In this document: piece by piece, positions 1,363 to 41,428 of the stretch
Numbering within the stretch: the stretch's first letter is position 1
Layout: every line of letters starts with the position of its first letter
Notes under the pieces: model-generated
What the model was told of the DNA's origin: nothing
What the model saw: only the letters and a program-made list of their open reading frames with translations
Databases searched by the model: none
Assembly (NCBI GenBank): GCA_017795005.1
Contig: CP051242.1
Span: 124,001 to 188,000, forward strand
Source of the DNA: Balneolaceae bacterium
GTDB lineage: Bacteria > Bacteroidota > Rhodothermia > Balneolales > Balneolaceae
Length of the DNA stretch: 64,000 bases
Direction: 5' to 3'
Translations under genes and position numbers: made by a program

Positions 1363-2697
1363 ATGCATCACCTACACCGCGAAAAGCTTTTTTCTTTATT
1401 TGATGACGACCAGAATGGCGTTGTGTTTATCCAGGGCGCTGAAACCATGTATCGGTATAAAACCGATTATGAGTTTCCTTTCCGGCAGGAATCCAATTTC
1501 TGGTATCTGACCGGAGCTAATGAAGCCGATTGTGCTTTAGTGCTGGATTTAAAGAAAGAAGAATATCATTTATTCGTCCCTAAACGTGATGCCCAATACG
1601 CGGTCTGGCATGGCTATGTAAAAACCAAAAAGCAATATCTGGAAGAGTATAAGCCGGATCACCTGCATTACCAGAATGAAATACTGAGTGTTCTGAATGC
1701 GCTTAAACCGGAAGTAGTCTACTGCCTGAATGATGAACAAGCGGAATTTATTGAAGATTTAGATCGTGGATTTACCGTAGAAACAGAAGCTCTTGAAGAC
1801 GCGCTCACTTACTGCCGTGTACTGAAAACCGAATGGGAACTGGATCAGATGAGAGAAGCCTCACGGGTAAATGATCTGGCCTATGAAGCAGTAATGAAAG
1901 CCATTAAACCCGGCATGTACGAATATGAACTGAAAGCAATCTTCAACAAAGTGCAAATTGAAAACGGCTTGTTGCAGGATGCCTACAATGGAATTTTTGC
2001 TTCGGGGGTGAATGCTTCCATTCTTCACTATGTAGAAAATACTGATCAGATTAACGACGGAGATTTATTTCTGATGGACGCCGGATTTGAGTGCAATGGC
2101 TACGCGGCTGATTATACCCGCACCTTTCCGGCAAACGGGAAATTCACCGAAACGCAGGCCGGAATTTATCAGGCGGTGCTGGATGCTCATAATGTCGTAA
2201 TTGAAGCCATTAAACCAGGCGTTAAAATGGAAGACCTCCACCTGATGGCTTCCCGCATTATGATGGAAGGCTTGATAAAGCTGGATATAATTCGTGGGAA
2301 TATTGATGAGATTATGGAGAACAATATTTTCGCTTTGTTCTTCCCGCACGGACTTGGACACTTCCTTGGCTTAGACACTCATGATGTGGGCGGGTATCCC
2401 AAAGGTGTGGACCGCATTGATCGTCCCGGTATTAAATTCCTACGTGCCCGGAGAGAACTGCTCCCCGGAATGGTGGTGACCATAGAGCCCGGTATTTATT
2501 TCGTTCCTGCTGTTCTGGAACCAGCCATAAAAGATCCGGAAAAAGCCAAGTACCTGAACACCGAAAAAGTGACGTCCCTACTCGGGTTTGGCGGCGTTCG
2601 TATTGAGGATGATATTGTAGTTACCGAAGACGGCTACGAAAACCTGACGAATGTACCTAAAGAGATCAGCGAGATCGAGGCGTTGATGAAGGGTTAG
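1363..2697 (+). CDS. pepP: Xaa-Pro aminopeptidase (M24B)
   Basis: Cytoplasmic metallopeptidase that removes an N-terminal residue preceding proline. The N-terminal creatinase-like domain (about 1-150) is followed by the pita-bread catalytic domain. All five dinuclear-metal ligands are visible: D239 and D250 (MDAGFECNGYAADYTRT), H333 (HGLGH), E375 (TIEPGIY) and E415 (VRIEDD). The 444-residue length is normal for aminopeptidase P. It stands alone after a 76-base gap from the phosphatase gene and is followed by the attC-like region. Confidence 0.93.
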   Translation: MHHLHREKLFSLFDDDQNGVVFIQGAETMYRYKTDYEFPFRQESNFWYLTGANEADCALVLDLKKEEYHLFVPKRDAQYAVWHGYVKTKKQYLEEYKPDHLHYQNEILSVLNALKPEVVYCLNDEQAEFIEDLDRGFTVETEALEDALTYCRVLKTEWELDQMREASRVNDLAYEAVMKAIKPGMYEYELKAIFNKVQIENGLLQDAYNGIFASGVNASILHYVENTDQINDGDLFLMDAGFECNGYAADYTRTFPANGKFTETQAGIYQAVLDAHNVVIEAIKPGVKMEDLHLMASRIMMEGLIKLDIIRGNIDEIMENNIFALFFPHGLGHFLGLDTHDVGGYPKGVDRIDRPGIKFLRARRELLPGMVVTIEPGIYFVPAVLEPAIKDPEKAKYLNTEKVTSLLGFGGVRIEDDIVVTEDGYENLTNVPKEISEIEALMKG

Positions 2698-2726
2698 ATG
2701 GAAAGCTTGTGAGCAATAGAATTATT

Positions 2727-2801
2727 TAGTTACTTCAACAAAAACCGAGAACCTGCACCGCCCTGCCTACCGCAGGCAGGTTAAACACCGGGTCGTTATA
2801 C
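2727..2801 (+). other. attC-like recombination site A (candidate)
   Basis: About 75 bases ending in ACCGGGTC-GTTATAC (2787-2801). It contains the palindrome CCTGCCTACCGCAGGCAGG (2762-2780) and an upstream CAAC at about 2736-2739. It resembles the second half of an integron attC (L'-R' with core GTT). The R' octet GTTATACTGC (2795-2804) is answered by its exact complement GCAGTATAAC after the following gene, the relationship expected of a cassette's two ends. No integrase is visible in the window. The left (R''-L'') half is poorly defined. Confidence 0.4.
2762..2780. repeat. dispersed palindrome CCTGCCTACCGCAGGCAGG, copy 1
   Basis: A 19-base interrupted palindrome. Identical copies are at 3314-3332 and 42823-42841, with a one-base variant at 41495-41513. 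All are intergenic. Here it occupies the loop position of an attC-like site. Its family resembles short REP-type palindromes. Confidence 0.8.
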
Positions 2802-2817
2802 TGCTAATTCAAAAATC

Positions 2818-3237
2818 GTGAAATCAGAAAAAACATTAACTATTGAACAAGCAATTAAACGAGGTTTCTTTTTTGTAAACCTTCCTGTTTTTCTGATTAT
2901 AGCTTTACCCCTATTTATAGCTGGAATACTTCCGGAAAGCTGGAATCTTAATCCAATAGTTGGTTTAGCAATAATACCTTCAATTATTATGGCTTGGGTT
3001 TGGTGGTCATGGTCACTGCCTAAATGGAGATTATGGGCGGTTAAGAAAGTTGATGATATAGAGTTATTATTTAACAAAGCCGTTGAAGCACAATTGATGT
3101 GGCCTGTTGGTCATTTTTTTCAGAAAACGGAAATCAATTCTGACAAACAGAAAAAGAAACTAAGAAGAATTATGGTTGAAAAAATGGATACTTCTGATGA
3201 ATATGTTCTTCAGATTATCTCAAAAATAACTAATTAA
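2818..3237 (+). CDS. hypothetical membrane protein in a putative integron cassette
   Basis: 139 residues starting at GTG, 17 bases after the GTTATAC core. Two hydrophobic segments (about 19-38 and 45-66) form a helical hairpin in the inner membrane. A charged cytoplasmic C-terminal tail follows, with KKVDDIELLFNKAVEAQ and a Lys-rich KQKKKLRR stretch. I do not recognise the family. The gene fills a roughly 550-base unit between two attC-like sites, as a cassette gene would, and is AT-richer than pepP. No function can be proposed. Confidence 0.7.
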   Translation: MKSEKTLTIEQAIKRGFFFVNLPVFLIIALPLFIAGILPESWNLNPIVGLAIIPSIIMAWVWWSWSLPKWRLWAVKKVDDIELLFNKAVEAQLMWPVGHFFQKTEINSDKQKKKLRRIMVEKMDTSDEYVLQIISKITN

Positions 3238-4033: not shown

Positions 4034-4062
4034 TGAATGTCTTAGAATAAAAATCTGTCTCT

Positions 4063-4644
4063 ATGTTTTCTAACAAGCGTTTCAAGTGGATACTATATAT
4101 GCGAGCCCATGTACTTTTTATTGCACTAATTTACTCAGTATCTGGATGTACTAACTATGACACAAAAAAATTCGTTTTTTTATCCTCTTCTGATAAATAT
4201 TCAGATAGCATAAGATTATTTGAAAGTACTGATCTTCGAATCACGTTATCGAATCCAATGACCTCTTATCCTGACGACCGGTATGAACTCGGGATTAATA
4301 CTCAGCTTTCGTTTAGCAATCTTGGCTTAAAGGCGGTTGTCATTGATTCCATATCTATTGATCAGTACCATAAAAATTTAAATATATCAGACTCTGTTCG
4401 TGTGTGGCTGACTTCCCAAAGTAGATACTCTTTCCCAATTGAGTTATGCCCAGAAGCTGATGGCTTTCCTTGTAATGGAATAAATCTGATTTACCACGTA
4501 GATAATTCGAAGCATGATTTTCAAATTAGCGATACAATAACTGTAGAAACTAAACTTTGGCTTAAAATTGATGGCAAGCTAAGGAGCATAAATAGGGTTG
4601 ACAAAAAAGTTTATCAAAGATTTCAAGGGGATTACTATCTCTAA
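4063..4644 (+). CDS. putative lipoprotein, unknown function
   Basis: 193 residues. The N-terminus carries basic residues, a hydrophobic stretch and a lipobox-like VSG-C (Cys29), so it is probably a lipoprotein. A second ATG 36 bases downstream (4099) would give a more ordinary signal peptide and may be the true start. The rest is rich in Ser, Asp and beta-branched residues with a DSIRLFESTDLRITLSNP region, suggesting a beta-sandwich. I do not recognise it. It follows the two BamE-like genes by 29 bases and is probably their operon partner. Confidence 0.6.
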   Translation: MFSNKRFKWILYMRAHVLFIALIYSVSGCTNYDTKKFVFLSSSDKYSDSIRLFESTDLRITLSNPMTSYPDDRYELGINTQLSFSNLGLKAVVIDSISIDQYHKNLNISDSVRVWLTSQSRYSFPIELCPEADGFPCNGINLIYHVDNSKHDFQISDTITVETKLWLKIDGKLRSINRVDKKVYQRFQGDYYL

Positions 4645-4891: not shown

Positions 4892-5464
4892 ATGGAATCA
4901 CTCATTAATTTCTTTAACCGTATCCAACCGCTTTCTTCGCAAACACTTGCTTTGATGGGTAATTTGTTTGAACCTGATACACTCGAAAAGGGAGCATACT
5001 TTATAAGAAAAGGAGAAATTGCCCGCGAAATTGCCTTTTTAGAATCCGGGTTTGTACGGGCATATTACATCAACAGTGAAGGGAAAGAATACAATAAGAC
5101 TTTTTTCCCCGCCCCTACTATCATCGGATCATACGCTTCCCTTATCAGTAAACAAAAAAATGAGGTCGCTCAACAGGCGCTCACCGACTGCAGGATTTGG
5201 AGAGCTTCTTTTCAAAAAATTGAAGAACTCTCTAAAGATAGCATCGAGATTGAACGGCTGAGACGAATAATAGCCGAAAGCTATTTTTTAAATAATGAGA
5301 AAAAAGAACTTGAAATGGCTTTACTGGATGCTGATCAACGCTATGAGATCCTTCAAAAAGAGTTCCCCGGAATTGAGCAGAAAATTCCTCAATATCATAT
5401 TGCCGCCTATTTAGGAATAAGTGCTACCCAGCTCAGCCGGATCAGAAAAAAACGCACTCAATAA
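4892..5464 (+). CDS. Crp/Fnr-family transcriptional regulator
   Basis: 190 residues. An N-terminal cyclic-nucleotide-binding-like beta-barrel (about 10-115, with KGEIAREIAFLESGFVRAYYINSEGKE) is followed by a long helix and a C-terminal helix-turn-helix (IPQYHIAAYLGISATQLSRI, about 164-183). This is the short Bacteroidota form that usually lacks the cAMP-contacting residues, so the ligand is unknown. It precedes the membrane protein and START-protein genes on the same strand by 93 bases and might regulate them; that is position-only inference. Confidence 0.88.
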   Translation: MESLINFFNRIQPLSSQTLALMGNLFEPDTLEKGAYFIRKGEIAREIAFLESGFVRAYYINSEGKEYNKTFFPAPTIIGSYASLISKQKNEVAQQALTDCRIWRASFQKIEELSKDSIEIERLRRIIAESYFLNNEKKELEMALLDADQRYEILQKEFPGIEQKIPQYHIAAYLGISATQLSRIRKKRTQ

Positions 5465-5557
5465 GCTTTATTTCTTTACCTATGTAAATGCGGCTGCCCT
5501 TCGCTTCGTGCTACTTTGTAATCGTATTTAACATCATTCACTTTAAATCTTATTGCA

Positions 5558-6768: not shown

Positions 6769-7827
6769 ATGGCAAAAAAGAGCATATTTAAGAAAATCAG
6801 TATGGTTATAGCAATAGTACTTGGGGTATTTATTCTGTTTGTAGTTGGGGTTGGTTTATGGACGTCTGCTCCGGGTTACAAAGGGGAGCAAAGTGATCAT
6901 TTTACCGGGACTAAGTTCATTAATGGTCCGGGCTACGAGGAGCAGGGGTTTACTCAGCTTTTAAAATGGGTGACCAACCGAAAGCCGGGCGAATGGGCGG
7001 AGCTTACCGAAGAAGACATCACGTATGGTGAACAACCGGCCAAACGTATTTTAGATTCCACTCAGGTAATCACCTATGTCAATCACTCTACTTTTCTCAT
7101 TCAAACAGATGGACTGAATATCATCACCGATCCGGTGTACAGTAAACGGGTCTCCCCATTTAGTTTTGCAGGACCAAAACGTATGCGTCCGCCCGGAATT
7201 TGTTTCGAAGATCTACCTGATCTGGATTTCGTGCTCATCAGCCACAATCACTACGATCATCTGGATATTGCCACGCTGAAACGAATCAAAGAAGTGCATG
7301 ATCCGACTTTCATCACGCCGCTTGGAGTGGATTTGTATTTGAATAAACAAGGAATCTCTAAGACCATTTCTCTGGATTGGTGGGAGGAAACTCCGGCATC
7401 CGATTCTGTACAAATTGCGGCAGTGGAAGCCCAGCATTTTTCAAGCCGGGGTATGTTTGATCGCGATAAAACCTTATGGGCAGGGTTTGTAATCAAATCA
7501 CCAAATGGAAATATCTATTTCGCCGGAGATACCGGATATAACAGCTTCTTTTCTGAAATCGGAGAACGATACGCTCCTATCAAAACTTCGTTAATTCCGA
7601 TCGGCGCCTACATTCCCCGATGGTTTATGAGTCCCGTTCATGTGGATCCTGCTCAGGCCGTTCAGATTCATAAAGATGTGCAATCTGAATTGAGTATCGG
7701 AATGCATTTCGGAACCTTTCCTCTGGCGGACGATGGTAAGGATGATCCCATCAACGATTTTAATGATGTAGTCGGCAAAGAGAATTTTATTCTGCTGAAG
7801 GAAGGGGAGAGATTGGTTCGGGAGTAA
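6769..7827 (+). CDS. MBL-fold metallohydrolase, NAPE-PLD-like
   Basis: 352 residues. An N-terminal membrane helix (about 9-31) anchors a metallo-beta-lactamase domain. The zinc motif SHNHYDHLD spans 158-166 (H159, H161, D163, H164). Further ligands are in EAQHFSSRG, FAGDTGY and SIGMHFGTF. The LIPIGAYIPRWFMSPVHVDPAQAVQIH segment is characteristic of the UlaG/N-acylphosphatidylethanolamine phospholipase D-like group. The likely substrate is a phospholipid or other phosphodiester, outside the cytoplasm. Monocistronic, flanked by repeats on both sides. Confidence 0.88.
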   Translation: MAKKSIFKKISMVIAIVLGVFILFVVGVGLWTSAPGYKGEQSDHFTGTKFINGPGYEEQGFTQLLKWVTNRKPGEWAELTEEDITYGEQPAKRILDSTQVITYVNHSTFLIQTDGLNIITDPVYSKRVSPFSFAGPKRMRPPGICFEDLPDLDFVLISHNHYDHLDIATLKRIKEVHDPTFITPLGVDLYLNKQGISKTISLDWWEETPASDSVQIAAVEAQHFSSRGMFDRDKTLWAGFVIKSPNGNIYFAGDTGYNSFFSEIGERYAPIKTSLIPIGAYIPRWFMSPVHVDPAQAVQIHKDVQSELSIGMHFGTFPLADDGKDDPINDFNDVVGKENFILLKEGERLVRE

Positions 7828-7910
7828 ATGCTCCAGCCATTTTCCTCCCTCTGAAATCCTGCACGCATGATTTCTGTCTCCCTCCAAAGGGAGACATCTT
7901 TGTCGTCATC

Positions 7911-9193: not shown

Positions 9194-11401
9194 TCAATTA
9201 AACCAATAGTTCATTTTAAAGACCATGCCACGGTTTTTAACTCCGAAGTTTTCGGTTCCGTAATTGTCATTGTACACCAGATATATATCACTCATTGCCG
9301 CGAATCTCCATTGCAAACGACTGTTGATATTGAAATTATCTGACTGTGTGTTGTATTGCAGAAAGGTCGTCCAGTTTAAATTATTGGAGAAACTGATCTC
9401 TGATTGTGGGCCAATCAAATGAAGTGTTGCTTCTCCGTAATTTTCAGGCAGTTCCACTCTGTTTCCGACATATCTTACCCCAAAATTTCCCCAGGGTTGT
9501 GTTCTCAGGTTTACATTCCCCCCAAACTCTAACCGGGTTCCGTCATAAAATCCGCCATAAGAAGTTTGTATACCTCCGCTCACCACTCCCCGTTGATCCG
9601 TATTATAAGAAAATGAAGCAGTATTATAGATATAGGTTTTTGCTGGCAGGAATTCTTCGCCACCGATTAAATCGGTTGGAAACAATAACCGAACGTTTGT
9701 GTTCTCAAGTGAAAGACTTACCGAACCATGATTTAACGTGTTAAGGAAATAATTCAAACTTGAAAAACGGTCGATGAGCTGACCGTCTGTCTCCCAGCTC
9801 ATAACGGTCCATGCACTTACTTCATGACTATTCACCCACTCCGATTCCGGGCGGAACGTATATCCAATCCATGGATTTAGATAACTAAAACCAACCCGAA
9901 TCAGGCTATCCCGCTCCGCATCGTATTGAAAAGAGCGCCGGGAAAAACCAAGGTCGTTGATATAATTATTTCCAACACGGTCGGCTGTAATTCCGGAAAA
10001 GAAATTACCGTTGTTATACATCATGGTTGCTCCTACAAACGAAACATCATCCAGCTTCTCTTCCGTTTGAGACCAGTGATATCGTGCGTTACCGGTAAGT
10101 CGACCGCTTTCTGATGAATAATGAAATTCGGCTCCCAATGTCCGGTTAAAATCCTCGGTACTATTGTTGGTTCCATCAAAAGCTGAACGATTGGTTACCA
10201 ACGCTTTGACGCTGCTACGACCGAATACACGTTGTTGTACAGCTCCTACCATATAATTATTTGCACCCAGACCATCAATACTTCGTGTTTGTACGTTCAA
10301 TGCACCTACTCTCAGATCTTCATTAACATTTCCGGTCATTCGTGCGCCAAATAAAATTGGAACTAATTCTCCATTGCTAATCCCAATCTGACGTGAAAAG
10401 AAGGGTTTTACTCCCCAAGTTCCAAAGCTCGAAAACAAATCACTATTCTCCAGAAAGAAGGCTCTCTTTTCAGGGAAGAAAATGCTGAATCGTGAAAGAT
10501 TGGTTACCTGTTGGTCAACATCCACTGTGGAAAAATCGGGATTTAATGTCAGATCCATTTTGAGTTTCGAACCGATCGGAATCTTGGCATCCAATCCAAC
10601 ATCAATATCTCCTCCATAACTGTCGCTTTCATTAAAGTCACGATCTGCTGAAGCAAGCACATACGGCTGAATAGCTATTCTTTGTCTTCTTTTTTCAGGT
10701 GGAGTTTCCATTTTTAGCGTGCCTAAGTAGCCCAAATCAATACCCGGAAATCCCTGAGGAACATGACTCCAGGTCGAATACACATTTCGTTTCATATCAT
10801 TTCGCACGAAATTAATGCCCCATTCATTGCTCTCCGGATTGTAATTGATGGACTTAAATGGAATGGCAAATTCAGCCACCCAATATTCATCGTATACTTT
10901 AACGGAACTGCTCCATGCATTATCCCAGTTGAAATCCGGGCGGGTTCTGGAATTTTCAATACTTACTACTCCATCCACTCTTGCCCCAGCTGCATTTACC
11001 CCAAACAGAAAGCCATTTGTTTTTTGATTGTAAGGATCCAGAACTACCGTAAATGCATCGCTGTCCCAATGGTACGAACTGTTATCCCGCTTCAGCGACT
11101 TGATGACCAGTTCTTCTTTTTTCTGATAATTGATCGCCCCGATATACAGGAACTCGTCATCATAGGTGATCCAAGCCTGAGTCTGAGCTTCGGCAAAGCC
11201 AGTATCCTTAGGCCATTTATTCAGAAAATCGGAAGTCAGCACTGCTGTTGTCCACGCAGCTTCATCCAGTTTTCCATCTATATTAATTTGCAGACCGGAC
11301 TTAGTAGATTCGAGTACGAACTCTTCAATAATTGATTGTTCCTGTGCGTTAACTAAACCGGCAGTGATCAAAAAGAGGGATACGAGTATAAACTTTTTCA
11401 T
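9194..11401 (-). CDS. DUF5916 protein with CBM9-like N-terminal domain, outer-membrane barrel
   Basis: 735 residues. The signal peptide (MKKFILVSLFLITAGLVNAQ) precedes a CBM9-like carbohydrate-binding beta-sandwich (about 35-225: IDGKLDEAAW, WDSDAFTVVLDPY, EFAIPFKSINY). Next is the hallmark block TLNPDFSTVDVDQQVTNLSRFSIFFPEKRAFFLEN (about 282-318), then a long stretch of alternating hydrophobic strands ending in an aromatic residue-rich C-terminus (MVFKMNYWFN), typical of an outer-membrane barrel. Function unknown. First gene of a three-gene minus-strand operon. Confidence 0.85.
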   Translation of the reverse strand: MKKFILVSLFLITAGLVNAQEQSIIEEFVLESTKSGLQINIDGKLDEAAWTTAVLTSDFLNKWPKDTGFAEAQTQAWITYDDEFLYIGAINYQKKEELVIKSLKRDNSSYHWDSDAFTVVLDPYNQKTNGFLFGVNAAGARVDGVVSIENSRTRPDFNWDNAWSSSVKVYDEYWVAEFAIPFKSINYNPESNEWGINFVRNDMKRNVYSTWSHVPQGFPGIDLGYLGTLKMETPPEKRRQRIAIQPYVLASADRDFNESDSYGGDIDVGLDAKIPIGSKLKMDLTLNPDFSTVDVDQQVTNLSRFSIFFPEKRAFFLENSDLFSSFGTWGVKPFFSRQIGISNGELVPILFGARMTGNVNEDLRVGALNVQTRSIDGLGANNYMVGAVQQRVFGRSSVKALVTNRSAFDGTNNSTEDFNRTLGAEFHYSSESGRLTGNARYHWSQTEEKLDDVSFVGATMMYNNGNFFSGITADRVGNNYINDLGFSRRSFQYDAERDSLIRVGFSYLNPWIGYTFRPESEWVNSHEVSAWTVMSWETDGQLIDRFSSLNYFLNTLNHGSVSLSLENTNVRLLFPTDLIGGEEFLPAKTYIYNTASFSYNTDQRGVVSGGIQTSYGGFYDGTRLEFGGNVNLRTQPWGNFGVRYVGNRVELPENYGEATLHLIGPQSEISFSNNLNWTTFLQYNTQSDNFNINSRLQWRFAAMSDIYLVYNDNYGTENFGVKNRGMVFKMNYWFN

Positions 11402-25695: not shown

Positions 25696-25735
25696 TTTCG
25701 ACCTCCTCTGTCTCCTCCCTGTCTGCCGAACAGGC
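25696..25735. repeat. 40-bp dispersed repeat, copy 1
   Basis: Begins TTTCGACCTCCTCTG and ends CTGCCGAACAGGC. An identical 40-base copy is at 34621-34660. Around it, 25630-25907 holds further hairpins: GAAAAGTTGAA / TTCAACTTTTC (25807-25817, 25825-25835), TCCCCTTGAGGGGA (about 25791-25804) and CTCCCTCAAGGGAG. No gene is seen in this 278-base gap. Confidence 0.8.
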
Positions 25736-34689: not shown

Positions 34690-35496
34690 TTAATTAGGCA
34701 CCAGCTTTGTAAAGCAAACAATTCCTCTTACTAACTGATCTGCTACTTTAAAACCAGCCTGATTGAAAAGCTTTTTGCTCTCATCTTTAGTCCAGAATTT
34801 AATCCCTCCCAGTGAAATAGACTCCTGCAACAGGCGCCCATACCAGGCATCACTTTTGATAAGATGCATCACAAAAAATACTCCATCCTGTTTGATAACC
34901 CGGCGAGCTTCATACAAAACTTTCAATTCTTCAGACAACTCATTCAGCGTTCCACCCATCACGATGCCATCAAAGGTTTTGCTAAAAAAAGGAATCTCTT
35001 TTCCATCTGCCCTAACCAAAAACATATCTGTCTCATCGGCTTCGGCTTTAAGTCGTGCTTCTTCCAACATTTGAGAAGAAAAATCCAGCGCTACAATTTC
35101 AGCCTTTTTTTGTGCTGCTTTTAGTGCTCTCCCGTACAAAGCTGTTGAACATCCTAAATCGAGATATAAACCACCTTCTTTTGGAGCGGCCCACTCAATA
35201 AGCAGTTCGTGTTCTTTTTCGATTGGGAAGTCTTCTCCTGATAATAGAGAAAGAGATCGTTTGCGCCAGATATCTTCGTAAATCGACGCTGTAAGCTTAA
35301 AATGATTGGTGCTTTGGGCAATAGAGCTGAAAGCCGGTTCTTTGCCCAGAATATCAATAATATTATTCCTGACCTTATATTCATCGCCTTCCTGTGAACA
35401 AACAGATCCGTTGAACGGAGTGTCCAACTCTGCAATGTTTTCAGGAACGTGTATAGTCGCTCTCTCATCAATCGGCGATCGTAATTCTAAATTCAT
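34690..35496 (-). CDS. class I SAM-dependent methyltransferase
   Basis: 268 residues. An N-terminal segment with a Cys-containing FNGSVCSQEGDEYKVRNNIIDIL (Trm112/UbiE-like lead-in) precedes the Rossmann methyltransferase domain. Motif I is LYLDLGCSTALYGRAL, then VALDFSSQMLEEAR, a DGKEIPFFSKTFDGIVMGGTLNEL motif IV region, and VIKQDGVFFVMHLIKS. The substrate is unknown; the Methyltransf_11 group often acts on small molecules or lipids. It lies just beyond the left end of the RM insertion. Confidence 0.82.
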   Translation of the reverse strand: MNLELRSPIDERATIHVPENIAELDTPFNGSVCSQEGDEYKVRNNIIDILGKEPAFSSIAQSTNHFKLTASIYEDIWRKRSLSLLSGEDFPIEKEHELLIEWAAPKEGGLYLDLGCSTALYGRALKAAQKKAEIVALDFSSQMLEEARLKAEADETDMFLVRADGKEIPFFSKTFDGIVMGGTLNELSEELKVLYEARRVIKQDGVFFVMHLIKSDAWYGRLLQESISLGGIKFWTKDESKKLFNQAGFKVADQLVRGIVCFTKLVPN

Positions 35497-35550: not shown

Positions 35551-35618
35551 TACTTCTGAAGCACCAGCGATATCTGTGCGCCTTTATCAACACTTAACAT
35601 CTTCGCAGCATTTCCTTT
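35551..35618 (-). repeat. 68-bp direct repeat, left copy (duplicated 3' end of the SAM hydrolase gene)
   Basis: Identical over 68 bases to 38240-38307, the final codons of the intact SAM hydrolase gene. In this copy the codons are followed by G, giving TAG instead of TAA. It is a target-site-type duplication flanking the RM unit, whose restriction gene stops exactly at its edge (35618-35620). Confidence 0.97.
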
Positions 35619-36670
35619 TAAAGACTGCTCAAAATCTGATCAATTTCCTTTTTAGAAATTTTATTCAGTTGAGTTAGGTTTTGAGAAGCTAATTTTTTCC
35701 AATGGTCAACTTTTGTTCTTTCAGTTGTTTTAACTTCCCAATAATAGCTTAGTTCCTCACTCGATGTTTCAATAATAAGATCTCTTATTTGCGCAAAACT
35801 GGATGTAATATTGATTAAGCTTCTGGGTACATCTTTATAGCTTTTCCCATTCAATATATAATCTTCTTGACCGCCAGCAGTAAATGGATCTCTTACATTT
35901 GGACAAATCACGGATTCTTTTGTAACTAACCAAGTAGTTACATTTTGAAACTTATTAAGGCCTTTTCCAAATAACTCAGGAAAATAAACCATCGCTTTGT
36001 TCTTTAAACCTTGTTTTTTTTCTTTAGACAGATTCCCCCAATATTTAAGAACTACATTTTGAGACCCTTCATCAGCTTGATTAATCCACCAAAGTTTATC
36101 CCCTTTTTTTAAAGTACTCCTGTAATAATCAACCATTGGACCTATTGGGTTTTCACTTTCTCTTATCACATCATATGAAATCTCCATTTTATCAAATATC
36201 GTCTCTCCTAAACCTAAATTCATATCGATAAGATATCGAGGCGAATGAGTTACAACTACTTCTGCTAGACAGTCTTCATAAGGTCTAAACTTGAATTGAA
36301 TTGGATCTGAAAGTTTCCCAAAAAACATATATATCCTTTCAGCATCCTTGTCTCTTCTAGACTCAAGGACACTATTTCCTGTAGTTCTCCAATGATTTTT
36401 ATTTGTAGTTTTAACTTCTATTCCATAAAAGTTTTTAACGATTATATCTGGAAAATCTTGAGCTGCTGTAATTCTGATTGAATTTTCAAAAGGTGTTCCT
36501 CTAGAATTGTTTTTTAAGATATCTGCAAGATATGGTTCAAATTGAACCCCACCTAAAGCAAGAATTTGGTTTGGATTTTTAGAAGCTAAATCATCAAGCT
36601 CCTGCTTTGATACACTAAGTAATTGCTCAAACTCATTTTTGTGAGGTACAGGGTTTGATGAATAAATCAT
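35618..36670 (-). CDS. type II restriction endonuclease (putative)
   Basis: 350 residues. A PD-(D/E)XK-type core is visible: P74-D75 (AAQDFPDIIV), then E85-V-K87 (FYGIEVKTT). GGVQFEPYLADIL and WRTTGNSVLESRRDKDAERIYMFFG are other conserved-looking blocks. The family name is not recognised, and cut-site specificity cannot be read. It lies three bases downstream of the C5 methyltransferase gene, the strongest support for the call. Codon use is AT-rich. Its stop codon uses the first base of the 68-bp repeat. Confidence 0.75.
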   Translation of the reverse strand: MIYSSNPVPHKNEFEQLLSVSKQELDDLASKNPNQILALGGVQFEPYLADILKNNSRGTPFENSIRITAAQDFPDIIVKNFYGIEVKTTNKNHWRTTGNSVLESRRDKDAERIYMFFGKLSDPIQFKFRPYEDCLAEVVVTHSPRYLIDMNLGLGETIFDKMEISYDVIRESENPIGPMVDYYRSTLKKGDKLWWINQADEGSQNVVLKYWGNLSKEKKQGLKNKAMVYFPELFGKGLNKFQNVTTWLVTKESVICPNVRDPFTAGGQEDYILNGKSYKDVPRSLINITSSFAQIRDLIIETSSEELSYYWEVKTTERTKVDHWKKLASQNLTQLNKISKKEIDQILSSL

Positions 36671-36673
36671 GAT

Positions 36674-38026
36674 TCAATTATTAAAATAAAGTTCCCATTT
36701 ATTCTCCAAACTTCTAGCTAAGTGATAAGCAAGTAACGGTGGAACAGCATTACCCACTACTTTATACGCCGCTGATGGGCTTACTAAAAATTTTTTGCGG
36801 GTATTTTTACTCTTAAGAACAAAATCAAAATCCCTTGGGAATGTCTGAATTAAACCACATTCTCTTAATGTTAATCTTCGTTCCTTCAGCCCTTGTTGGA
36901 GTTCTTCCAAATAAGTTCCACCATTTAATTCTGAAAGTCTTCTAAACTCAATATTACCATGATGCTCAGCCCGAATAGTTGGCGCTAATCCATCTAGCCT
37001 AACTTCTGTCTGCCCTTGACAGTGAGCTCCCATATACTTTGCTCTTGAGTAATACTGTTGGGATAGGTCTTTTGCTTGTTCAGGTTCTCTTAATGATTGG
37101 AATAAAGATCTTACAGTCATAGGAGGTTTTAGCGCCTCTCCAGAAAAATTAACCCGATGAGTCGGAGACGGATATGGGTTTAACACCTTTTCGAATTCCC
37201 TCTTTTCCAATTTTTTCAAGACATCTTTTCTTAACGCTGATTTTTTCAAACCAATAAAAAAGACCCTTTCTCTAGATTGAGGAACACCATAATCACCTGC
37301 ATGTAGTACTTGCGGTTCAAAAACAAAATACCCGTCTCTATTAATTGATGAGAAGTCTTGCTGAATTATATCTTTAACATTAGATAAGTTTACTAGCCCT
37401 TTTACATTCTCTGCTACAAAAACTTTTGGCTTAGTTATCTCTATAACTTCTTTCATCCACATGTAAAGCTTACCACGAGTCTCTTCAGTAGCCTCATATT
37501 CTTTTTTTGGCTCACCTAAATGATTTTTGTGAGAGTTAAAACCATTTCTTTTTCCCGAAATGCTAAAATCCTGACAAGGAAACCCACCAGTAACAATGTC
37601 TACATCTTCAGGAAAAATATTTTCGCCAGACTTATGCAGCTTCACTAAGTCTACAATGCTCTCAGAGCGAAAAATTTCAGGCTCAACCTCTCTATCCTTA
37701 AAATAATTTACCCAAGTATTACGAGCACTTAATAGAATGTCATTTGCAAAAACAGTTTTGAATTTTGTTTTCTTTAGCTCAACAAATCCATTATCTACCT
37801 CTCTTTCAACAAACTCAGGATTCAAAACTTCATTTATTGAATCTTTATGAACCTCAAAACCACCTTCAAAGCCCAAATCCATTCCACCGCAACCGGAAAA
37901 CAGCGAAATCATACTTAATGTTTTAAACGATTTTTTCTGGACATTTTGTGCGTTGTAGCTTAAAACAAGTTGAGGTTCTTCAACTTCTGATATTACGTCT
38001 TCATTTTTATACTCAACAGAATTCAT
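36674..38026 (-). CDS. DNA (cytosine-5) methyltransferase
   Basis: 450 residues. All core motifs of m5C enzymes are present: I FSGCGG (43-48), IV with catalytic Cys151 (GGFPCQDFS), VI ENV (206-208), VIII QSRERVFFIGL, and X YKVVGNAVPPLLAYHLA. The target-recognition region lies between VIII and IX (about 270-365). An unusual N-terminal extension of about 38 residues precedes motif I. It protects DNA from the neighbouring nuclease. The recognition sequence is unknown. Low GC suggests horizontal gain. Confidence 0.95.
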   Translation of the reverse strand: MNSVEYKNEDVISEVEEPQLVLSYNAQNVQKKSFKTLSMISLFSGCGGMDLGFEGGFEVHKDSINEVLNPEFVEREVDNGFVELKKTKFKTVFANDILLSARNTWVNYFKDREVEPEIFRSESIVDLVKLHKSGENIFPEDVDIVTGGFPCQDFSISGKRNGFNSHKNHLGEPKKEYEATEETRGKLYMWMKEVIEITKPKVFVAENVKGLVNLSNVKDIIQQDFSSINRDGYFVFEPQVLHAGDYGVPQSRERVFFIGLKKSALRKDVLKKLEKREFEKVLNPYPSPTHRVNFSGEALKPPMTVRSLFQSLREPEQAKDLSQQYYSRAKYMGAHCQGQTEVRLDGLAPTIRAEHHGNIEFRRLSELNGGTYLEELQQGLKERRLTLRECGLIQTFPRDFDFVLKSKNTRKKFLVSPSAAYKVVGNAVPPLLAYHLARSLENKWELYFNN

Positions 38027-38104
38027 ACACTTTCAAAAAATCAGTTTGCTTTGAACTGGTTATCCTTTTTTTAGAATTTCTTTTTAAACCTCATTTCTCA
38101 AGCT

Positions 38105-38239
38105 TTATCTTTTTATAACATATTTCCAAATCACAATAACATTCCATCCTAGTTTTTTCAACTTTCTTAAGCTCTTTTTATCTCTTTCTTTATTCTTTTA
38201 TATCTTATCAGTCCAAAACCTTTTATTCGTTTTAGCCAT
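38105..38239 (-). pseudogene. vsr: vsr mismatch endonuclease relic (truncated, in-frame stop)
   Basis: On the minus strand the frame reads AKTNKRFWTDKI, a TAA, then KNKERD, KLKKLGWNVIVIW and ends IKR. This matches the C-terminal third of Vsr-type very-short-patch repair endonucleases (P-x-TN-x-x-FW-x-x-KI-x-x-N-x-x-RD ... LGW-x-V-x-x-(I/V)W). The N-terminal part with catalytic residues is missing, cut off exactly at the edge of the 68-bp repeat. Vsr genes usually accompany C5 methyltransferases, which fits its neighbour. Confidence 0.75.
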
Positions 38240-39033
38240 TACTTCTGAAGCACCAGCGATATCTGTGCGCCTTTATCAACACTTAACATCTTCGCAGCAT
38301 TTCCTTTATTAATGCCAACTTCCAGCATCCCCGAACTACCAATAAAAGCAACCGGTTCGCCTGGTTCCACATCTCCAAAGGTATTTACCAGATGATCAAT
38401 GATAGTGTTCCCAACATAAATTTTCACTTTTCTGCGACCAACTGTGTCTTCCAATAAACTTTCTGAAATATTAGTGATCAGGTTTCCAAACCGATCAATA
38501 TGAATTACCCAACCCTGTAGTCCATCTTTATCTCCAATGGGAGTCGCCCAATGGTAAGTAACCAGGTCCTTAATCGGATCTCCTAATTCTTTAAGCTCTA
38601 CACCACTACTAATATGGGCAGCAACAGGAGCAAAAATATCACGCCCGTGAAAAGTTCTGGAGCGATCTTTCCTCCAATATTTTTGGTTATTGAGCTTGTA
38701 AGCTTTGTATTTGAACTCATCGTACAACAAAGAAAAAATTCCATTATCAGGACCTACAAAATACTGATCCTCAATTTTAAGAACGATAGGGTGGCGATCT
38801 GTACCCACTCCGGGATCAACTACAACGAGGTGCACTGTTTCGGGTGGAAAAAGAAAAGCGGAGTTTCGAACTACCCAGGCACCAGCCATTATATCCTGCG
38901 CCGGAATATCGTGAGAGACATCAATAAGCCTCGCTTTGGGAGTAATCCCCAGCATAACGGCCTTCATGGCACTTACATAGTGATCCTGAGTACCAAAATC
39001 TGTAGTAAGAGTAATGACCTGAGTATCAGGCAT
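38239..39033 (-). CDS. SAM hydrolase / SAM-dependent hydroxide adenosyltransferase (DUF62)
   Basis: 264 residues. Family motifs: LTTDFGTQDHYVSAMKAVM, LIDVSHDIPAQDIMAGAW, VHLVVVDPGVGTDRHPI and YFVGPDNGIFSLL, then GWVIHIDRFGNLITNI. Members hydrolyse S-adenosylmethionine to adenosine and methionine; the physiological reason is not settled. Its start overlaps the end of dnaN by eight bases, so it is translated from the dnaN transcript. The last codons lie in the 68-bp repeat, and its stop (TAA) is completed by the first base of the RM insertion. Confidence 0.9.
   Translation of the reverse strand: MPDTQVITLTTDFGTQDHYVSAMKAVMLGITPKARLIDVSHDIPAQDIMAGAWVVRNSAFLFPPETVHLVVVDPGVGTDRHPIVLKIEDQYFVGPDNGIFSLLYDEFKYKAYKLNNQKYWRKDRSRTFHGRDIFAPVAAHISSGVELKELGDPIKDLVTYHWATPIGDKDGLQGWVIHIDRFGNLITNISESLLEDTVGRRKVKIYVGNTIIDHLVNTFGDVEPGEPVAFIGSSGMLEVGINKGNAAKMLSVDKGAQISLVLQK
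38240..38307 (-). repeat. 68-bp direct repeat, right copy (end of the SAM hydrolase gene)
   Basis: Perfect match to 35551-35618, offset 2689 bases. This copy is continuous with the intact gene, so it is the parental target; the left copy is the duplicate. Confidence 0.97.
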
Positions 39034-40327: not shown

Positions 40328-41428
40328 TTGATGAAAAGAATCCTTTCAGCGCTCTTTATAATCAGCTTACTCAGCATTTCTGCTCGGGCTCAGTCTGCAT
40401 TGGCAAAGTACGGGAATGATTTCCTTAGTACAGGAGCCGGGGCACGTGCACTTGGAATGGGTGGAACACATTCGGCATTAGCAAATGATGTTACCGCCGG
40501 ATATTGGAACGTAGCCGGCCTGGCACAACTAGAACGGCCTGAGTTAATATACATGCATTCCGAGCGTTTTGGTGGGATTGTTGGATACGATTATGGAGCA
40601 GCGGCGATGCCATTAAAATCAGGAAACGGTGTGGTCGGAATCAGCTTTTTTCGTCAGGGAGTAGACAATATTGCCAACACCTTAAATGCCTGGGATAATG
40701 AGCGAGGACAAAATGGAGGTCCGAGACAAGATGCTGAATCTTACATCACCAAATTCAGTGCTGCAGATGCTGCCATTTTTCTGAGCTATGCAAAAAAGTA
40801 TTCCGACAGACTTTCATACGGGGCTTCTGCTAAAATTATCAACCAGCGACTCGGACCTTTTGCCAATGCCTGGGGCTACAGTATAGATGTGGGTGCGCAA
40901 TACAAAACCGATATTGTTGATCTGGGAGTTTCCATCCAGGATGTGACCACCATGCAGAAAATGTGGACGGTGAATGAAGAGGAGTTTAACGGATCGAACG
41001 GTCAGTCATTCCAGGAAACCTTCGGCGACTCCATTCCATCCGGACAAAATGAATACGTTCTTCCTTCGGTACGATTAGGTGCTTCCAAAACATTCTCAGT
41101 GACCGATTTTGATTTTGTTGCTGCCGCTGATCTAAACCTGTTATTCGAAAACCGGCGTGCTTACTACATGAACATTGGTTCGATGAGTATTGAGCCACAC
41201 ATCGGGGGAGAGGTTACATACAAAAACAGAATCTCGGCTCGTGCGGGACTTACCGACTTTATAACTGATCCTGAATCCGGTTTTTCGGTTTCTCCCACTC
41301 TCGGACTTGGATTTCGGGTTGCCACCTTCTACATCGATTATGGTTTTGCCAGCTTCGCAGGAACCTCCAGTAACCTCGGCTACACCCATCGCATCTCGCT
41401 GAAGTTTAATTTGAAAGAAAAGGAGTAA
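40328..41428 (+). CDS. PorV/PorQ-family outer-membrane protein
   Basis: 366 residues. A signal peptide (about 1-22) precedes the hallmark FLSTGAGARALGMGGTHSALANDVTAGYWNVAGLAQL. A FadL-like 14-strand barrel pattern follows and ends in an aromatic strand (YTHRISLKFNLKEKE). PorV-type proteins shuttle substrates of the type IX system; the exact paralogue cannot be assigned from sequence alone. The T9SS substrate at 31012-34563 shows that the pathway exists in this genome. Preceded by 186 bases without a gene. Confidence 0.82.
   Translation: MMKRILSALFIISLLSISARAQSALAKYGNDFLSTGAGARALGMGGTHSALANDVTAGYWNVAGLAQLERPELIYMHSERFGGIVGYDYGAAAMPLKSGNGVVGISFFRQGVDNIANTLNAWDNERGQNGGPRQDAESYITKFSAADAAIFLSYAKKYSDRLSYGASAKIINQRLGPFANAWGYSIDVGAQYKTDIVDLGVSIQDVTTMQKMWTVNEEEFNGSNGQSFQETFGDSIPSGQNEYVLPSVRLGASKTFSVTDFDFVAAADLNLLFENRRAYYMNIGSMSIEPHIGGEVTYKNRISARAGLTDFITDPESGFSVSPTLGLGFRVATFYIDYGFASFAGTSSNLGYTHRISLKFNLKEKE

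Follow-up and report, generated by a model that had tools for sequence, protein, structure and literature searches.

Insertions of restriction-modification (R-M) genes that carry a long, variable duplication of the target have been described in Helicobacter pylori by Nobusato et al. 2000 (Gene 259:99; PMC1643837, PMC3031569, PMC3874152, PMC4978471). As far as these accounts go, the H. pylori insertions are characterized by an empty allele, direct repeats of about 100 bp that are single in that allele, and the lack of a mobile element. Also on record are IS-flanked R-M units and others that combine inverted repeats with short duplications (PMC3874152, PMC3031569). The recombinase-free movement of R-M genes has awaited an explanation since 2000. 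The locus analyzed here, which lies in a 64-kb stretch of DNA from a Balneolaceae bacterium (the window), shares the three features of the H. pylori insertions, consistent with an earlier remark on this DNA that R-M movement with long target duplications is known in other bacteria. It differs from those insertions in the bacterial family, in its position at the end of a housekeeping gene, in having one end inside a vsr gene that is intact elsewhere beside the same kind of methyltransferase-nuclease (M-R) pair, and in representing one event. We consider the window to hold a case of the known kind in another bacterial group, to which the vsr truncation is an informative addition. The example is also clean: both junctions can be read base by base, and relatives from its own genus retain the empty site.

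All genes at the locus lie on the minus strand, in the order dnaN, SAM hydrolase, vsr relic, C5 methyltransferase, restriction endonuclease and UbiE-like methyltransferase. The target gene encodes a SAM hydroxide adenosyltransferase (SAM hydrolase; 38239 to 39033; PF01887/PF20257) and ends in copy A (38240 to 38307) of an exact, maximal 68-bp direct repeat, the other copy of which (copy B, 35551 to 35618) follows the restriction endonuclease gene. Copy A consists of the last 22 codons of the hydrolase gene plus the TA of its stop codon and is single in relatives. The identical copy B gives a 22-aa partial hydrolase match and is followed by TAG, which is the ancestral stop codon found in the relatives G040, G039 and G036, and then by the ancestral downstream sequence leading to the UbiE-like methyltransferase gene (34690 to 35496), the hydrolase's ancestral downstream neighbor. 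There are exactly two copies of the 68-mer in the 3.75-Mb genome, and it is the longest exact direct repeat within the window, the next being 40 bp. The insert between the copies (35619 to 38239; 2,621 bp) has a G+C content of 33.6%, compared to 41 to 42% in both flanking genes. It holds the vsr relic (about 38105 to 38239), a C5 cytosine DNA methyltransferase gene (36674 to 38026; 450 aa) and a predicted Type II restriction endonuclease gene (35618 to 36670; 350 aa). The hydrolase stays intact and its stop codon is now TAA, the final A of which is the first base of the insert, and the nuclease stop codon, also TAA, borrows its last A from copy B. The preliminary description had reported the identity of the two copies, the three genes between them and this arrangement of stop codons, all of which we confirmed.

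The preliminary description had also proposed a comparison with related Balneolaceae for a site lacking the insert. The SAM hydrolase gene is present in 89 of the 92 genomes of the family, and the closest relative, G040, belongs to the same genus and has a hydrolase that is 95% identical. At the corresponding locus of G040 (L004), window positions 40500 to 38240 align to 33 to 2294 and window positions 35618 to 34689 align to 2227 to 3156; the two halves of the window thus overlap on L004 at 2227 to 2294, which is exactly 68 bp, and the insert is missing. The same layout with a single 68-bp copy was found in G039, G036, G002 and G033. In these alignments, which include two relatives of the same genus as the window, the hydrolase gene is uninterrupted, ends in TAG in the three nearest relatives and is followed, after a short spacer of about 53 bp, by the UbiE-like gene. 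The two genes are neighbors in 29/29 relatives examined, 52 to 221 bp apart. Given the 68-bp overlap of the halves and the unbroken neighbors in all of these relatives, we conclude that the window has received an insertion, of which the 68 bp are the target duplication. No relative had two copies at an empty site, and the R-M genes are not a fixed resident of this locus across the clade, the two outcomes that would have spoken against an insertion. Both copies are unlike G040 at 4 of the 68 positions and unlike G039 at 11, yet they do not differ from each other, which indicates that the repeat duplicates resident DNA. The event was probably recent, or the copies have been held alike by gene conversion. 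These comparisons confirm the insertion of R-M genes with a target duplication. The claim that this duplication measures 68 bp stands insofar as the repeat is exact and duplicates the target; the truly duplicated stretch is about 62 to 68 bp, because donor bases may overlap the edges of the repeat.

The two ends of the insert bear on what kind of DNA was inserted. The vsr relic, which corresponds to the C-terminal part of a very-short-patch-repair endonuclease and contains one in-frame stop, starts at the first base of the insert; its 5' end, comprising more than half of vsr, is cut off precisely at the edge of the repeat. Across this edge the window reads, in frame, ...V-M-A-K-T-N-K-R-F-W, compared to ...Y-V-M-P-K-T-N-x-x-F-W in intact Vsr. 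At locus L088, an intact vsr lies directly upstream of a homologous M-R pair, and locus L100 has the order vsr-XRE-M-R; the proteins from both loci are Vsr by Pfam (PF03852). Given that vsr is cut exactly at the repeat edge in the window and is intact next to M-R elsewhere, the vsr-side end is not the end of an element. No terminal inverted repeats were found in the insert (the score was below the shuffle mean), and M and R are its only reading frames, with no recombinase, integrase, IS or transposase frame. The lack of inverted repeats and of a recombinase frame, together with the end inside vsr, favors a fragment with arbitrary ends over a defined element. The clean junctions and missing recombinase of the preliminary description were thus borne out, as was the insertion of R-M genes, but the inserted DNA looks like a captured fragment, cut within vsr at the junction, and not like a unit with its own ends. 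Transposition, whether of an IS composite or of an R-M transposon bounded by terminal repeats, has its precedents in the inverted-repeat and IS-flanked R-M units introduced above. However, it is highly unlikely here, given the lack of a terminal inverted repeat and of an IS or transposase frame in the insert, and a duplication far longer than the 4 to 10 bp of the IS1/IS5 cases (PMC3031569). Since the truncated vsr has intact relatives, the insert was broken arbitrarily at that end, which speaks for the capture of a fragment rather than for an undiscovered R-M transposon with fixed ends. The truncation could have happened in an earlier host. The same test, truncation of a neighboring gene, is applicable to other R-M insertion cases.

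Integrases typically target the 3' ends of conserved genes, which remain intact upon such an insertion. Integrase-dependent islands at gene 3' ends have in common with the window the 3'-end repeat on both sides and the preserved gene. We considered that a small satellite could have integrated site-specifically with an integrase supplied in trans, in which case the hydrolase gene's 3' end would be the attachment site and the exact 68-bp repeats at both ends would be attL and attR. This seems quite improbable for several reasons. The insert contains no integrase gene, and the vsr-side end truncates a gene, unlike a defined attachment end. The site was uninterrupted in 29/29 relatives, so that it is not a hotspot and shows none of the repeated use seen with such islands, and a hydrolase search of the 92 genomes found no second partial hydrolase copy in any other genome of the family. 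Furthermore, an attP of foreign origin should deviate from the resident sequence, whereas the two copies are identical and the nearest relative differs from them at 4/68 positions.

We consider it likely that a horizontally acquired fragment, consisting of the 3' part of vsr and the complete C5 methyltransferase and nuclease genes, entered the hydrolase gene at its 3' end and left the 62- to 68-bp target duplication. The locus itself presents the insertion relative to an empty site, the duplicated resident sequence, an insert free of recombinase and IS, and an end inside vsr; from these we infer an illegitimate event that took place at very short matches and needed no recombinase. In the most likely course, a broken or stalled strand end in the hydrolase gene would have switched templates at GTA, a Val codon in the donor's vsr, copied vsr'-M-R as far as the nuclease gene's end and then returned at AAA, to a point 68 bp behind its departure. 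Alternatively, a staggered break could have been filled in and joined to a linear donor. The two routes would give an identical product, a long duplication made without a recombinase, and the locus offers one such product. The intact R-M pair would then have been retained, as addictive R-M pairs tend to be. The last three bases of the repeat are GTA, which makes up to 3 nt of microhomology possible at the vsr edge, and the use of the repeat's first A by the nuclease stop codon makes at least 1 nt possible at the other edge. Microhomology of 1 to 3 nt is weak evidence alone, and the Val codon in question is GTA in L088 and GTT in L100. The repeat start and the nuclease gene end, at a point 24 bp into the insert, share a 9-bp match, AAAGGAAAT (minus strand, within 35585 to 35655); 0/315 interior segments of the insert reach a 9-bp match to the repeat start, although this match was noted post hoc and lies off the junction. 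Joining of the classical Ku-dependent type is unlikely and was rejected, given that no Ku gene was found in the genome.

A different origin of the same structure would be a single crossover of a circle in which the 68-bp hydrolase end was present beforehand, such as one excised from another strain of the same species via the same repeats. Homologous recombination of this kind gives exactly the observed structure, and the repeats would allow the excision. This account, however, only traces the origin back to a previous insertion within the species, and a search for carrier plasmids or phages returned remote homologues (at best 37% in plasmids, 32% in phages and 40% in one viral contig), none of them close. 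We regard this route as unlikely. The R-M system may itself have driven its capture: nuclease breaks after partial loss of methylation, or Vsr breaks, would release the R-M genes on a linear fragment and trigger the template-switch repair by which the target is duplicated. This proposal is likewise doubtful, but if true, long target duplications would be a by-product of R-M attack and not of any transposase.

The cargo is predicted to be a Type II R-M pair capable of sequence-specific cleavage and protection. The C5 methyltransferase (PF00145) has intact catalytic motifs (FSGCGG, PCQ, ENV, QSRER and GNAV) and adjoins the nuclease. The latter carries a PD-x10-EVK motif, the PD and EVK residues of which are invariant across 30 homologues, and it matches the PADLOC Type II REase profile PDLC03508 (E 4e-35), with no match to a Pfam family. 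Its AlphaFold model is fair (pLDDT 83, pTM 0.55), and a Foldseek search with this model gave no significant match, only weak EcoRV and Hjc-like ones (E about 1). Within the family, a homologue of the nuclease occurs in only 1 of the 91 other genomes, where it is 52% identical and lies at another site, and it is missing from both same-genus genomes. We fetched 80 homologous loci, mostly from Bacteroidota, nearly all of which have the M-R order of the window. The vsr/XRE-M-R Type II systems L088 and L100 resemble the window copy in the methyltransferase (about 58 to 67% identity), the nuclease (43 to 53%) and the gene order, and the window copy differs from them in having vsr only as a relic. 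An XRE regulator lies just upstream of M in 45 of 82 loci (the 80, the window and L055); it is missing from this position in the window (38027 to 38239). The R-M pair may now be controlled from the hydrolase operon or by a promoter within this 213-bp gap. A Klebsiella plasmid carries a remote nuclease homologue, which is likewise accompanied by a cytosine methyltransferase and vsr.

The preliminary description had anticipated that the R-M unit would be found in other genomes with different flanking repeats, which was not borne out across the 80 homologous loci. Exact-repeat and gapped scans of these loci found no comparable duplication, and neither did a search of 20 other C5 methyltransferase loci of the family; among all of these, the window's event is the only one and no recurrent pattern was shown, but since old duplications decay and many contigs are short, absence elsewhere does not mean that the process is rare. 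Several candidate repeats were rejected as target duplications. At L081 (Maribacter sp. 4G9; 194 to 549 and 4052 to 4405), the flanks are directly repeated pieces of a group II intron. These pieces bracket the R-M homologue and are possibly a movement route or an assembly break. The repeats at L126 and L130 are dispersed and multi-copy, those at L089 are imperfect, those at L079 and L087 are attC-like or dispersed hairpins, and, among the C5 methyltransferase loci, the L162 repeat is a duplicated prophage gene and the L165 repeat is a dispersed 130-bp double hairpin.

Some of these repeats are of separate interest. At L079 (Winogradskyella), an R-M homologue and an XRE gene lie between attC-like imperfect hairpins (1296 to 1442 and 5281 to 5427) in a cassette-array-like arrangement, and a sequence similar to this hairpin repeat lies upstream at L087. 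L165 (G003:C1:2275000-2290000), from another Balneolaceae genome, has three near-identical double hairpins of 130 to 140 bp (5406 to 5545, 7680 to 7819 and 9600 to 9739) that separate an R-M pair and an OLD-like ATPase gene, with three more full copies elsewhere in G003. This hairpin could be a MITE, a REP-like or an attC-like repeat that builds a defense island. Within the window, the 40-bp exact repeat, TTTCGACCTCCTCTGTCTCC..., occurs at 25696 and 34621, 9 kb apart, and is apparently dispersed and intergenic, and a 30-bp exact repeat with a palindromic core, CGTCATCCCGGACTTGATCCGGGATCTTTG, occurs at 7904 and 42649.
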